In this document: piece by piece, positions 35,980 to 41,245 of the stretch
Layout: each line of letters opens with the position of its first letter
Numbering within the stretch: the first letter of the stretch is position 1
Assembly: GCA_944325075.1 (NCBI GenBank)
Contig: CALUYU010000014.1
Span: forward strand, 1-42,690
Source of the DNA: Candidatus Gastranaerophilales bacterium
GTDB taxonomy: Bacteria; Cyanobacteriota; Vampirovibrionia; Gastranaerophilales; Gastranaerophilaceae
DNA: 42,690 nucleotides
Direction: 5' to 3'
Position numbers and translations under genes: made by a program
The notes under the pieces: generated by a model
The model's input: the letters and a program-made list of their open reading frames with translations, nothing else
Databases searched by the model: none
What the model was told of the DNA's origin: nothing

Positions 35980-37848
35980 ATGATTACAATTGGCATACCA
36001 AAAATAACAAAACAGAGGAAAAAAATAAAAATTAGCTGTTCAATTGAAATGAACAATGAGACAAAAGAGTTATGGCTGGAAACTGAAGAAAAATACGGGA
36101 AGTATTTTGTTCAAGACCGATGTGACGGTTTTTTAATAGCAATGCTTCCGATTGCAATGCGTGGACAGAAAGATATAATATGCAATGCTCCGGTATCAGA
36201 AGAACTTCTGCATAATATCTCAACGCAGCTTATACCATCTGTTGTAAAAAATTCTAAGAATTTATATAAAACAAGGATTTCGGCCGAACCTGCAAGAACT
36301 CCGACAAAAAACACCGGTGCAGTTGGAGCCGGGCTATCCAGGGGCGTTGACTCTATGCATGTCCTAAGTCAATACTTAAACCCTAAATATCCCGATTTCA
36401 AACTAACCCACTTGCTGCTTCATAATGCAGGAGCATTCAGCATTGCAGGTTACAATGAAAAAGAACAAAAGGAAAGAGTTGAGAAGGAATGTTTTGAAAA
36501 ATCCCAAAATCTTGCACAAGAACTCGGATTACCAATCATTCTTGCAAACACTAATCTTGCGGAAGATTACAACATACAGTATCATTTATATTCCGAATAT
36601 TATAATTTATTTCCGGTATTTGTAATGCAAAAATTATGGAAAACATATTTCTATGGATCAACATATGACTTTTCAAATTTTAAGCTTAAAAATAATGACC
36701 TATATGACTGTGCACATTATGAACTTCTGCTTGTAAACTCACTCTGCACTTCAAACCTCAAAATTTATTCAGAAGGCGGAGAAAAAAACAGACTCGAAAA
36801 GACAGCTGATATTACAGAATTTGAACCTGCTCAAAAAAATCTTCATGTTTGCATTACTGACTCCAAAAACTGCAACGCTTGTATAAAGTGTATGAGAACC
36901 CTCTTATGCCTTGATGCACTGGAAAAACTTGACAATTTTAAAAATGTATTTGATATAGATCATTACCGCCATAACCGTCCGGTATACATGAACTATCTTG
37001 AAAACTGCCATAAGAAAAGAGATGAAATTAACGAGCCGACATATCAGCTTTTTAAAAAACAGGGAAGACTATATAACAGCAGCCCGAAATGTTTTATTGA
37101 GAACATTCAACTGCCGTCGGTCACAACATCAGCGCTAATTATAAAAAATCTCAGAACAGAACAGATTCTTATGGAAAAACAACCTAAAGAATTTTTTAAT
37201 GCAGTAGGTTTTTCTAAAATTTTAACGGCACTTATTGCCTTGGAAAGCGGAAAAACCCAAATGCCGGTAACTATTTCAGAAAAAGCCTATAACGGGTTAA
37301 AAGCTGCAACACTTTATGACCTGGTAAATATTATGCTGATTACACAAAATAACGTTGCAGCATTAAATATTGCGCAAGCAGTGGCCGGCTCGGTTGAAGA
37401 GTTTGTTAAATTAATGAATAAAAAATCTGCACAAATCGGAGCGCTAAACACTCTATTCTCAAACCCTACCGGAGTAAGCGGAGTAAATTATACAACAGCA
37501 GAAGATGCCTGCAAATTAATGGAATACGCAATTCAAAACAAACATTTTTGCGATATATTTAAGCGAAAATCATACACGGTTAAATTTAATGAAGAAGACA
37601 AAACATTTTCTACAACTAATCCAATGCTTACAGAAGGCAATAATTTCTATATTAAAGAATGTACAGCCGCTAAATACGGCTTACGTGGGAATTATAGCAC
37701 TGTATCTGCCGTTATCGAAAAAAATTCTGATATATATTTAGCAGTATTGCTTGGCGTGATAGAAAAAGATTCAAAAGCAAATAACTGCTTTAAAGATACA
37801 CAAAATCTCATAAACTGTATTCTTGAAAAAGCTCCGGTTATGAGTTAA
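35980..37848 (+). CDS. Fusion of a PP-loop ATPase-like domain with a catalytically altered D,D-carboxypeptidase-like domain
   Basis: The protein has 622 residues and no signal peptide. The N-terminal half (about 1-345) carries a PP-loop-like motif SRGVDS at 120-125 (family SGGxDS) and a Cys cluster C291, C298, C301 and C304 (NCNACIKCMRTLLCLDAL). It resembles QueC/adenylation-type proteins found in cell-surface loci. The C-terminal half (about 385-620) matches the PBP5/DacA fold: TTSALIIKNLRTEQIL, ILTALIALESGK, LYDLVNIMLITQNN, NKKSAQIGALNTLFSNPTG. The active-site SxxK is GFSK (410-413), SxN is TQN (455-457) and KTG is KYG (565-567), so peptidase activity is unlikely. Both halves appear cytoplasmic. 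The matrixin gene follows after 9 nt. Confidence 0.78.
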   Translation: MITIGIPKITKQRKKIKISCSIEMNNETKELWLETEEKYGKYFVQDRCDGFLIAMLPIAMRGQKDIICNAPVSEELLHNISTQLIPSVVKNSKNLYKTRISAEPARTPTKNTGAVGAGLSRGVDSMHVLSQYLNPKYPDFKLTHLLLHNAGAFSIAGYNEKEQKERVEKECFEKSQNLAQELGLPIILANTNLAEDYNIQYHLYSEYYNLFPVFVMQKLWKTYFYGSTYDFSNFKLKNNDLYDCAHYELLLVNSLCTSNLKIYSEGGEKNRLEKTADITEFEPAQKNLHVCITDSKNCNACIKCMRTLLCLDALEKLDNFKNVFDIDHYRHNRPVYMNYLENCHKKRDEINEPTYQLFKKQGRLYNSSPKCFIENIQLPSVTTSALIIKNLRTEQILMEKQPKEFFNAVGFSKILTALIALESGKTQMPVTISEKAYNGLKAATLYDLVNIMLITQNNVAALNIAQAVAGSVEEFVKLMNKKSAQIGALNTLFSNPTGVSGVNYTTAEDACKLMEYAIQNKHFCDIFKRKSYTVKFNEEDKTFSTTNPMLTEGNNFYIKECTAAKYGLRGNYSTVSAVIEKNSDIYLAVLLGVIEKDSKANNCFKDTQNLINCILEKAPVMS

Positions 37849-37857
37849 AATAAAGAT

Positions 37858-38388
37858 ATGAAAAGGGTTTTCATAATTTTTTCATTACTCATTATAACGG
37901 CCGTAACGTCATATGCATATGAATTTCCATACTGGCAGTATTTTCCTTTGAGTGTTTATATTGAAGCTAACCCGAAAAAGCCAATCGTTCAAAAAGCATT
38001 TAACACTTGGCAGTCAGCAACAGGATTTACAAAATTCAGATTTGTAGATACAGAAAAGAAAATTCCTCATATAATTGTAAAATTTTCAGACAATAATCCC
38101 AACACCTCTGGTAGCCAGTTTGAGAATGCAGTTGGGTTGGCGCATTCATACACCCCAACCGGATATTATGCGAAAGCTGTCATTACAATATGGCTTACCT
38201 ACCCGGGAACGGATAAGTTTATGACTGATACACAGATATACAGTATAGCACTGCATGAAATCGGACATGCTTTAGGGCTTATCGGACACTCCCCTTACAA
38301 AAATGATATTATGTACTTTCAGGAACACGGGCAGACAACTCTTTCGGACAATGATATTGCAAGATTAAAGAAAAAGTATTCCCCATAG
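37858..38388 (+). CDS. Secreted matrixin-like metalloprotease
   Basis: This 176-residue protein has a signal peptide (MKRVFIIFSLLIITAVTSYA) and one M10/matrixin-like domain. The zinc site is the full metzincin signature HEIGHALGLIGH (about residues 139-150). The Met-turn NDIMY follows about 10 residues later. The upstream YFPLSVYIEANPKKPIVQKAFNTWQSATG stretch matches the start of the catalytic domain in short bacterial matrixins. It is probably an active periplasmic or secreted protease. The gene follows the PP-loop fusion by 9 nt and is likely cotranscribed. Confidence 0.88.
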   Translation: MKRVFIIFSLLIITAVTSYAYEFPYWQYFPLSVYIEANPKKPIVQKAFNTWQSATGFTKFRFVDTEKKIPHIIVKFSDNNPNTSGSQFENAVGLAHSYTPTGYYAKAVITIWLTYPGTDKFMTDTQIYSIALHEIGHALGLIGHSPYKNDIMYFQEHGQTTLSDNDIARLKKKYSP

Positions 38389-38394
38389 CTGCGT

Positions 38395-41136
38395 CTATTT
38401 GAGAATTATATCGTCTCCAAACCACCCCCTGATCTCTTCATTGTAACCGGCCTTTATATTAGCCCGTACCTTTGGATTAGGAAATTCTGTTTCCATATGC
38501 TTAAGCCCGCGTTCATACAATTTCTGAGCCGACTTCAAAATCTCTTTTGGAATATCTCCGTCATATATTTTGCAGGCATGATATATTTCAAATAAACGGC
38601 GTTTAGCCATACCAGCAAGATAAACTTTTTTACCATTCTTAACAGAGTAATCGATATTCATTAAAGATATAGCTTTTTCATAATCGCCATCCTGAAGCGC
38701 TTCAACAAAACCGGGATGATTTTGTATAGTCCCTTCACCGCGGCTGAAAGTAAAATCCATTACAGCATCTTTTAATGCTGCCGGTAAATTATTGTAAGTT
38801 TCGGCTCCAAGAATTATCTTAAGGTTCTCGGCTCTGTCTAAAATATCCTGGGCAAGTAAAGTACAAACCTCCTCTTTAGTAAGTTCATCATTTTTGTAAC
38901 GACTAATTTCATCAGGCTTAATAAGGTGACCTATACCAATAGTTAAATTGCCGTTTTTATCATGGTAAGCTTTTTTGTGAAAGTCATTTTCTCCAAACCC
39001 CGGGGCATCTTCGCTTTTCTTCAAATCTCTTATATACTCAAGACTTAAACCGACGGCCTTTGAAACATCTTTTAAGTCATCAATATTTTTGGCCTCAATG
39101 CGCGGAGGGATTTTAAGAACCTGACCAACATCAAGGGAATCAGATTTCATCCGGTTGAGTTCTTTAATTCCTCTGACCTGAACTCCATACTTTTTAGCAA
39201 TAAGAGAAAGATTTTCACCGGATTTAACAGTGTGAAAAGGATTTTCCTCTACATCTACATATTTCAAATTAAATGTTTTTCTTATATCTTCAATCGTTAA
39301 TTTCTTTTTCTTTGGTGCTGATAAGTAATCAACAATACTCTTATTTAACTTTTCAGCAAGACTATTAACATATTTTTCATCAGTTAACCTTTCAACATCT
39401 TTAGGATTTTTCAAATTTCCAGTTTCAATAAGAATATCAGGGCCTTCATATGCCCTGCCATCTGTCCCCCTTAACACGGCAAGCCCTTGTGTTTTAATTT
39501 TTGAATACCCTTTGAATCGGTCATCCTGCTCCAGATTTTTTTGAATAGTTTCAGCTAAATCAGCATCATCATCATCAGGAATCAAACTTTTTCCTACCCT
39601 TGAAGTCGTCGGAATAATCATAATTCCTTCCTTATCGCCCACTGAATTTGCATGAAGACTTATCACCATATCAGCATCTTTTCTATACTTTTCAATTGTT
39701 TTGGGAACAACATATGCAGATCCGGTAATATAAACAACTTTAGCGCCTTGTTTAGTTAATTTTTCAGTCAGGGCATCCCCGAATTGACGATTGACAGTCC
39801 ACTCCTCAAGGGCTTTTCCGCCATTTCCGATAAACTGGCTTTTGTGCTCGATTTCAATTGTTTTTTTACCTTGTTTTCTCTTAACAACAACGGCATTGCT
39901 TGCACCGGGGTCAAAATTTACGGAATTATTTTGAGTATCGGCCATAATTCCACCATGCCCCGGATTTACTATAATAGTTTTACCGCTTAGAACGCCCTTA
40001 CCAGCGGGTTCATAAACTCTCACATCAGCAACTGGATTTCCATCTTTATCTACAGAAGGACGAGGTCGAACTTCTTCTCGATTCCATAATTTTGCATTTT
40101 TTTGCCAGTCCTCATACAAGCTATCGACAGTGAATCCTGATTTATTCCCGTTAATAACAACCTCAGTGTTGCCAGGGACACCCGCACGCTCAATACCATC
40201 CGGATATTTGCCGTCAATCAACGAATTAACTATTTTATCAAGTTTTTTGGTTGAAACTAAAGTAAACCACTTATCAAACTGTGCATCAAGTTCTTCCTTA
40301 AATGCCTTCCGGACATTTTCGTCTGCTAGACCTGAACCTGCACGCTTTTCAATCAGATTATATAATTGCATAACTGCATCTTTTCGCGGATTTCCCCGAT
40401 TAAACTTATTTGCTACTTCAGAACAAATCATCTCAATAAGCGATTCTTTTGGAGAAATCTTATCATAAGCCTTGATAACCTCAAAAACGTTATCTTTATT
40501 TACTTTTGCAAATGCAGTCTTAAAATTCTTTCTTGTTATAGCACCAAAATCAGAAGCCGATTTTTTTAATTCCTTTGCAATATCTTCAGGGGTATAAACA
40601 GGAACTCCCGCTCTAACTTCCGATTCCACATCATTGTCAACGGAAGTAGAAATATCATTACCGTCTGTAGAACTATCAGCTTCTATAATATCATCTGAAG
40701 GAGGAATAACAGCAGGTGTTTCAGGAATTTCCGTCTCTGATGCAGCAAAAGTTACTGTATCATCCTGCTTTTCAAATGCCCGATAAGGAACATTTATCAA
40801 AGTTCCCTTAGAAATCTTGTTTACATCTTTTATTTGAGGGTTTAACTTTGCCAAATCCTTTATTGACATATTATACTTTCTGGCAATGGCTGCAAAAGTT
40901 GTCTCAATTTTAACTGTAGGGAGATTCAGCACTGTCCCTTTCTGCAATTTAGCAGTCCCTGACATCTTTACGTAATCTCGAAACTCCTTTTCATTTTTAA
41001 AATTAAATGCATGCGTTAACCCGTAAACAGTATCGCCCGCTTTAACAGTATAATTTCCTGAAGGGCGTTTTTTCTTATTATTATCCTCTACAACTTTTAT
41101 ATCAGATATTTTGGCAGATCCAATTCTAAAATTCAT
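38395..41136 (-). CDS. Modular peptidoglycan hydrolase: LysM, amidase, LysM, GH24 lysozyme
   Basis: The protein is 913 residues from the ATG at 41136, chosen because GAGAGG lies 6 nt upstream; a start 8 codons earlier is weaker. Two LysM-like units lie at about 25-120. A linker follows with an EF-hand-like or helical region to about 370. The Amidase_3 domain then runs to about 615: PGHGG (zinc His near 394), EEWTVNRQFGDAL, SLHANSVG and LIETGNLKN. A third LysM lies at about 637-685. A GH24 phage-type lysozyme domain follows (catalytic-type Glu near 709 in KSEDAP, YHDKNGNLTIGIGH with Asp and Thr, and DFTFSRGEGT). Both enzyme sites look intact, so the protein can cut peptide stems and glycan strands. 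There is no signal peptide, as in endolysins, and the export route is unknown. Confidence 0.88.
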   Translation of the reverse strand: MNFRIGSAKISDIKVVEDNNKKKRPSGNYTVKAGDTVYGLTHAFNFKNEKEFRDYVKMSGTAKLQKGTVLNLPTVKIETTFAAIARKYNMSIKDLAKLNPQIKDVNKISKGTLINVPYRAFEKQDDTVTFAASETEIPETPAVIPPSDDIIEADSSTDGNDISTSVDNDVESEVRAGVPVYTPEDIAKELKKSASDFGAITRKNFKTAFAKVNKDNVFEVIKAYDKISPKESLIEMICSEVANKFNRGNPRKDAVMQLYNLIEKRAGSGLADENVRKAFKEELDAQFDKWFTLVSTKKLDKIVNSLIDGKYPDGIERAGVPGNTEVVINGNKSGFTVDSLYEDWQKNAKLWNREEVRPRPSVDKDGNPVADVRVYEPAGKGVLSGKTIIVNPGHGGIMADTQNNSVNFDPGASNAVVVKRKQGKKTIEIEHKSQFIGNGGKALEEWTVNRQFGDALTEKLTKQGAKVVYITGSAYVVPKTIEKYRKDADMVISLHANSVGDKEGIMIIPTTSRVGKSLIPDDDDADLAETIQKNLEQDDRFKGYSKIKTQGLAVLRGTDGRAYEGPDILIETGNLKNPKDVERLTDEKYVNSLAEKLNKSIVDYLSAPKKKKLTIEDIRKTFNLKYVDVEENPFHTVKSGENLSLIAKKYGVQVRGIKELNRMKSDSLDVGQVLKIPPRIEAKNIDDLKDVSKAVGLSLEYIRDLKKSEDAPGFGENDFHKKAYHDKNGNLTIGIGHLIKPDEISRYKNDELTKEEVCTLLAQDILDRAENLKIILGAETYNNLPAALKDAVMDFTFSRGEGTIQNHPGFVEALQDGDYEKAISLMNIDYSVKNGKKVYLAGMAKRRLFEIYHACKIYDGDIPKEILKSAQKLYERGLKHMETEFPNPKVRANIKAGYNEEIRGWFGDDIILK

Positions 41137-41245
41137 TATTACCTCTCGCACACATCTCAATCTATTAGAACGTAAATATTTAGAAAAAACTTTAAATATT
41201 TTAACAAAATTTTACATTAAATTTTCATATGCACATATAAAAATA

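Follow-up and report, generated by a model that had tools for sequence, protein, structure and literature searches.

The window considered here, 42,690 nucleotides that make up contig 14 of a 2.26-Mb genome of Candidatus Gastranaerophilales bacterium, encodes a fusion protein of 622 amino acids (35980..37848, + strand) in which a PP-loop domain of the QueC type is followed by a DD-carboxypeptidase domain without its catalytic serine. Related Gastranaerophilales come from the rumen and the gut. The architecture, its genus-wide conservation and the purifying selection acting on both halves could be established computationally: the fusion is real and maintained by selection, and both an assembly artefact and a decaying gene can be dismissed. 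As to function, we favour, with middling confidence, a two-domain enzyme or pseudoenzyme that was put together from two recruited enzyme folds and serves to bind or scaffold something in the metabolism of envelope glycans.

The reading frame starts with ATG, is preceded by GGAG, and its coordinates are exact. The first-pass annotation, which was made from the sequence alone, had described a cytoplasmic protein that joins a PP-loop half to a dead, DacA-like half; the folds (HUP-type and S11, respectively) and the motif losses agree with this description. The motif SRGVDS (residues 120-125) and the cysteine cluster at 291-304 (Cys 291, 298, 301 and 304) are found as it had listed them, and so are GFSK (410-413) and KYG (565-567). 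S11 domains are typically exported enzymes. The N-terminus of the fusion protein, as the same annotation had noted in denying it a signal peptide, is not hydrophobic (best 19-residue Kyte-Doolittle mean 0.95 within the first 60 residues), and hydropathy reveals no hydrophobic N-terminus in any of the eight fusion orthologues, which leaves the S11 domain without this mark of export.

The two-domain order, for which a search in other genomes had been proposed, is shared by 8 of 13 species within a single Gastranaerophilales genus. The proteins comprise 620-631 residues, are uninterrupted and share 50-79% identity; in all eight, which come from separate assemblies, the halves are joined and not encoded by separate genes. 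The fusion is absent from three genomes of the same genus with a completeness of at least 90%, and is thus an accessory gene. Among 386 genomes from the phylum and 383 from the order, no further QueC-like/S11 fusion was detected; a 692-aa and a 1006-aa protein (G529 and G366, respectively), which looked like extra S11 fusions, were found not to be. Domain trees group all eight fusions with support of 100/100 for the N-terminal half and 93/96 for the S11 half, which implies one origin of the fusion. Between the window protein (L001) and its counterpart L003, the least diverged pair, dN/dS is 0.103 for the N-terminal and 0.109 for the S11 half (Nei-Gojobori); this is the sole unsaturated pair of three, dS being saturated in most segments of the other two, which show pN/pS of 0.13-0.24. 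Of course, broken catalytic motifs could also betray an assembly fusion, a chance reading frame or a decaying pseudogene. Identical full-length architecture in eight species, a dN/dS of about 0.1 for each half and the single origin seen on both trees, however, make this hardly conceivable.

The C-terminal half is a degenerate Peptidase_S11 (DD-carboxypeptidase) domain of residues ~374-617 (37099..37830, + strand), as judged from PF00768 (83.6 bits), Foldseek and VIA-align. The Pfam match has an E value of 1.9e-23 and covers residues 378-554 of the fusion protein; together with the recurrence of the two-domain order in eight species, this lies well outside what chance would produce. In the AlphaFold2 model of the full-length protein (20-row alignment; mean pLDDT 92.7, pTM 0.84) residues 368-622 take the S11 DD-carboxypeptidase fold, and the structure prediction thus upholds the earlier assignment against any different fold. 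The nearest solved structure is DacB of B. subtilis (3mfd; Foldseek E 6.9e-17), which VIA-align superimposes with a Z of 30.7 and 2.4 Å over 228 residues, at 29% identity.

What made this fold an enzyme is gone. The former SxxK reads GFSK (37207..37218, + strand), and the nucleophilic Ser is replaced by Gly or Ala in 8/8 orthologues. The former KTG is KYG (37672..37680, + strand); its Thr has become Tyr or Val, while Lys and Gly are kept in all eight. The first-pass annotation had both of these motifs right, but took TQN for the former SxN, which alignment with active S11 enzymes places at Q456-N457-N458 (QNN; 37345..37353, + strand). Here Ser is exchanged for Gln or Arg and the last Asn is kept throughout. 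According to the alignment, none of the eight orthologues retains any of the three catalytic hydroxyls (SxxK Ser, SxN Ser, KTG Thr). K413, N458, K565 and G567 are invariant across the eight fusions, and fold stability alone may explain their retention. The loop after the SxxK helix, which lines the active site in active S11 enzymes, is shortened by ~9 residues in the fused domains; because it is deleted too, binding cannot be assumed from the S11 fold. To judge by the sequence, this half can neither hydrolyse a substrate nor be acylated in the usual way; non-covalent binding of a putative ligand is possible. That the domain is still a hydrolase with a different nucleophile is very improbable: Lys413 is retained and the window protein offers a Ser at 412, yet this position is Ser or Ala among the orthologues (GFSK, GVAK, GCAK, AFAK, ATSK), hence no conserved nucleophile is there, and the domain lacks an export signal.

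A literature search on dead or cytoplasmic PBP domains returned no papers, and among viral contigs the dead S11 domain had no relatives. Three S11-like matches in faecal records labelled 'Bacteriophage sp.' were examined and turned out to be active S11 proteins of the usual kind, whose N-termini have the character of export sequences. The only other S11 profile match in the genome of the window, L053 on contig 27, is a membrane-anchored protein of ~400 residues with SIIK, SDN and KTG that resembles class A beta-lactamases. In another genome (G379), a 695-aa tail-fibre-like protein (L087) has at its end an S11 domain in which SLTK, SAN and KTG are intact; it is possibly of prophage origin.

The N-terminal half is less easily named. 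Searches of Pfam, NCBIfam and PDB profiles yielded no curated family (best DUF6395, E 0.15, below the cut-off); there is no Pfam match to QueC (PF06508), and hhalign aligns the Cys region only, with a probability of 18%. Foldseek finds only weak matches, the best one being LarE (E 0.02). Modelled alone (16 rows), the half reaches a pLDDT of 93.9 and a pTM of 0.91, and VIA-align matches it to QatC (Z 14.5), to Cap9 of type IV CBASS (Z 12.4) and to QueC (Z 12.2). A generic PP-loop or asparagine-synthetase domain was rejected in view of these Z values of 12-14.5, as compared to 9.0 for TilS and about 8 for LarE. The alignment with QatC comprises 298 residues (rmsd 4.8-5.1) and spans model residues 1-363. 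The earlier 'PP-loop-like' was therefore correct as to the fold and can be sharpened to QueC-like, closest in fold to QatC.

The link to QatC is based on VIA-align, a common Cys4 site and a common layout of N-terminal extension, QueC core and C-terminal helices (PMC13279940, PMC13329287). The extension (residues 1-110; 35980..36309, + strand) consists of beta strands and helices and contains an invariant D49. The QueC-like PP-loop (HUP) core follows with residues 112-313 (36313..36918, + strand; Z 12.2-14.5 to QueC, Cap9 and QatC) and harbours C291-x6-C298-x2-C301-x2-C304 (36850..36891, + strand), which resembles the zinc site of QueC and QatC (PMC13329287, PMC13279940) and is invariant in all eight fusions and in 13/13 stand-alone relatives. 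In a broad structural sense both hallmarks of the QueC family are present, the PP-loop HUP core and a zinc-type Cys4 site, the zinc being predicted. We here treat the half as QueC-like in fold and do not class it as a member of QatC. A queuosine enzyme it is not, since all twelve genomes of the genus that were inspected (12/12) have a separate true QueC gene.

Whether the domain still uses ATP hinges on its P-loop (SRGVDS, residues 120-125; 36337..36354, + strand). The corresponding sequence in stand-alone relatives is SGG, SCG or SAGxDS; Ser120, Gly122, Asp124 and Ser125 are invariant in 13 of them, and position 121 is occupied by C, G, A or S. Seven of the eight fusions have Arg at 121, and most read SRGxDS, the window protein among them, where an intact loop would be SGGxDS. 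As position 121 varies in the stand-alone proteins as well, Arg121 is no proof of lost ATP binding. Further replacements are seen in 3/8 fusions: S120V in L006 (VGGIDS), D124N in L004 and D124S in L007. They fall in two lineages of the fusion tree and affect positions that correspond to S156 or D160 of QatC. The latter holds the phosphates of ATP by the equivalent Ser, Asp and Ser, and its S156A/S161A mutant has lost function (PMC13279940). The 'ATP-activating domain' of the first-pass annotation has thereby become doubtful, residues invariant in 13 stand-alone relatives being lost in three of eight orthologues. If the orthologues have one function in common, it should not need the P-loop, which leads to the pseudoenzyme reading. 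The other five fusions, that of the window included, retain Ser120, Asp124 and Ser125. In total, one or more fusions deviate in 13 of the 31 columns that are invariant in the 13 stand-alone proteins, e.g., Y78, H205 and S264, although the stand-alone set is far more divergent (mean identity 0.40 versus 0.61 among the fusions).

The stand-alone homologues have ~400 residues, share 25-45% identity with the N-terminal half and are annotated as hypothetical proteins. They are spread over other Gastranaerophilales, photosynthetic Cyanobacteria, Verrucomicrobiota, Kiritimatiellota, Clostridia, Bacillaceae, Bacteroidaceae, Methanomethylophilaceae and Paracoccus plasmids. L018, L020, L023, L034, L035 and others combine SxGxDS with C-x6-8-C-x2-C-x2-C and do not reach the cut-off of any Pfam or NCBIfam model. 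Pfam domains in 64 of their neighbours, taken mainly from loci that already looked polysaccharide-like, are glycosyltransferases (12 for the commonest family), EpsG, polysaccharide pyruvyl transferase, polysaccharide flippases, DegT aminotransferase and TupA-like ATP-grasp. Since some loci, e.g., those of Pontibacillus (L024), Clostridia (L027), Methanomethylophilaceae (L029) and Paracoccus, are not such clusters, the family may be said to reside mostly, not always, in surface-glycan loci. A member of 558 aa on a plasmid of Paracoccus yeei (L148:7461-9137) has about 150 extra N-terminal residues, which by eye look like a fragment of polysaccharide pyruvyl transferase.

The surroundings of the fusion gene itself suggest an envelope role. 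Only 9 bp downstream lies the gene of a matrixin-like metallopeptidase (37858..38388, + strand; PF00413, E 8.1e-17), which adjoins the fusion in 4/8 loci and is a possible, not an obligatory, operon partner. Its product, from a gut Gastranaerophilales genome, is small and secreted (HEIGHALGLIGH). Convergent to the fusion, and near it in five of the eight loci, is the gene of a peptidoglycan hydrolase (38395..41160, - strand; Pfam, synteny); the encoded protein of 921 aa unites three LysM stretches, Amidase_3 and a phage-lysozyme domain in a single chain. Gene order is partly inherited, however, and for this reason no proof of such a role.

A dead S11 domain has also been attached to another enzyme. 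In another genus of the same family (G272, contig 7, L133:5842-8052) a protein of 737 aa consists of a MurF-like ligase (TIGR01143, E 1.2e-71, below cut-off) and a C-terminal degenerate S11 part (Pfam, 39 bits), which hhalign relates to the S11 domain of the QueC-like fusion with a probability of 95%. The neighbourhood of the gene includes a radical SAM protein, a FemAB-like protein and a nucleotide-sugar dehydrogenase. In the S11 tree this domain sits on a long branch that does not distinguish a shared from a separate origin. The finding suggests that the S11 module has been reused, and two cytoplasmic folds of the ATP-ligase type with dead S11 tails within one family are the most suggestive hint at a transferable binding role. 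A fragment of an S11-like domain similar to that of the MurF fusion is seen in G077 (L098/L118).

How might such a chimera work? The N-terminal domain, QatC-shaped and of QueC-family type, would have been recruited from the stand-alone family of the surface-polysaccharide loci and combined with an S11 domain devoid of its nucleophile, and the chemistry of neither fold would be in use any longer, at least as a genus-wide rule. The N-domain, stabilised by nucleotide or zinc, and the serine-less pocket or surface of the S11 domain, with a putative ligand, would then serve binding, and the protein could be a sensor or a scaffold that takes part in the metabolism of envelope glycans or peptidoglycan. 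For this binding or scaffolding role speak the S11 hydroxyls lost in all eight fusions beside a retained K413, N458, K565 and G567, the shortened loop, the low dN/dS of both halves, P-loop losses in three and the other altered columns, which leave Cys4 untouched, the surface-glycan genes around the stand-alone relatives and the MurF-like fusion. Against it stand the P-loop residues kept in five of the eight, the variability of position 121 in the stand-alone proteins, the saturation of dS in two of three pairs and the possible retention of the four S11 residues for fold stability alone.

The main rival is an N-terminal half that is still an active ATP-dependent ligase of the QueC/QatC type; it would adenylate a carboxylate and, perhaps on an envelope precursor, couple it to an amine; the dead S11 domain, placed where the C-terminal extension of QatC binds QatB, would recognise the substrate or a partner. 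The QueC-family fold, the intact Cys4 site, the S..xDS kept by 13/13 stand-alone relatives and the MurF-like fusion, likewise a cytoplasmic ATP-dependent ligase with a dead S11 domain, are all in line with this, and because the window protein, like four other orthologues, keeps Ser, Asp and Ser, the idea stays alive for it. The loss of P-loop residues in three orthologues under similar purifying selection, and the changes at Y78, H205 and S264, make it a tentative alternative. A cytoplasmic receptor, in which the serine-less PBP fold senses precursors ending in D-Ala-D-Ala, e.g., UDP-MurNAc-pentapeptide, and signals via the QatC-like nucleotide-binding domain, is rather unlikely. More doubtful still is a role in anti-phage defence like that of QatC or Cap9, which the top structural matches might bring to mind. 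PADLOC models do not match; neither PADLOC nor the neighbourhoods of the fusion loci disclose an operon with qatA, qatB or qatD; and no KAP ATPase, TatD nuclease or CD-NTase lies beside the fusion or its stand-alone relatives, which are mostly located in polysaccharide loci. No QatB/CD-NTase-like acceptor whose N-terminus carries MG[GTSA][ST] is encoded near these genes, the single match being a homoaconitase-type ORF, and the Tyr/Asp pair for CDG recognition after the YxxS strand is, by eye, not conserved in the alignment.

Here an S11 domain is maintained by purifying selection in the cytoplasm, free of its nucleophile and joined to a QueC-family fold. Should this dead half bind precursors, it would be one of the rare sensors of wall precursors inside the cell; if the receptor reading is true, it would, together with the MurF-like/S11 fusion, be part of a wider intracellular reuse of dead S11 domains. 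The stand-alone family extends QatC-like proteins into the surface-glycan loci of many phyla, and its substrate would inform on the entire QatC-like group. For Cap9, protein-nucleobase conjugation in immunity has recently been shown; which reaction QatC carries out has yet to be established (PMC13279940).

Among known systems, QatC of the qatABCD anti-phage defence (PDB 9y01, 9y02; PMC13279940) shares the fold of the whole N-terminal half, the PP-loop and the Cys4 site. Identity is about 10-12%, and sequence profiles give no match. The fusions differ from QatC by a partly degenerate P-loop, the added C-terminal S11 domain and the lack of qat genes nearby; their cysteine spacing is C-x6-C-x2-C-x2-C instead of the C(x)19CGxCxxRR that, like T278/T280, is among the motifs of QatC. 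QueC (PF06508) and Cap9 have the PP-loop core and Cys4 in common with the fusion and lack its extra N- and C-terminal parts. Direct homologues of the N-terminal half are the stand-alone proteins (L018, L020, L023, L034; Paracoccus yeei WP_157767416.1), which like QatC have about 400 residues and, unlike the fusions, an intact P-loop Ser/Asp/Ser and no S11 domain. With the S11 DD-carboxypeptidases, such as DacB (3mfd) and PBP5 and PBP6 of E. coli, the C-terminal half has the fold in common; in contrast to them, it has lost the Ser, the second Ser, the Thr and the loop, and the protein to which it belongs has no signal peptide and carries a QueC-like domain instead.
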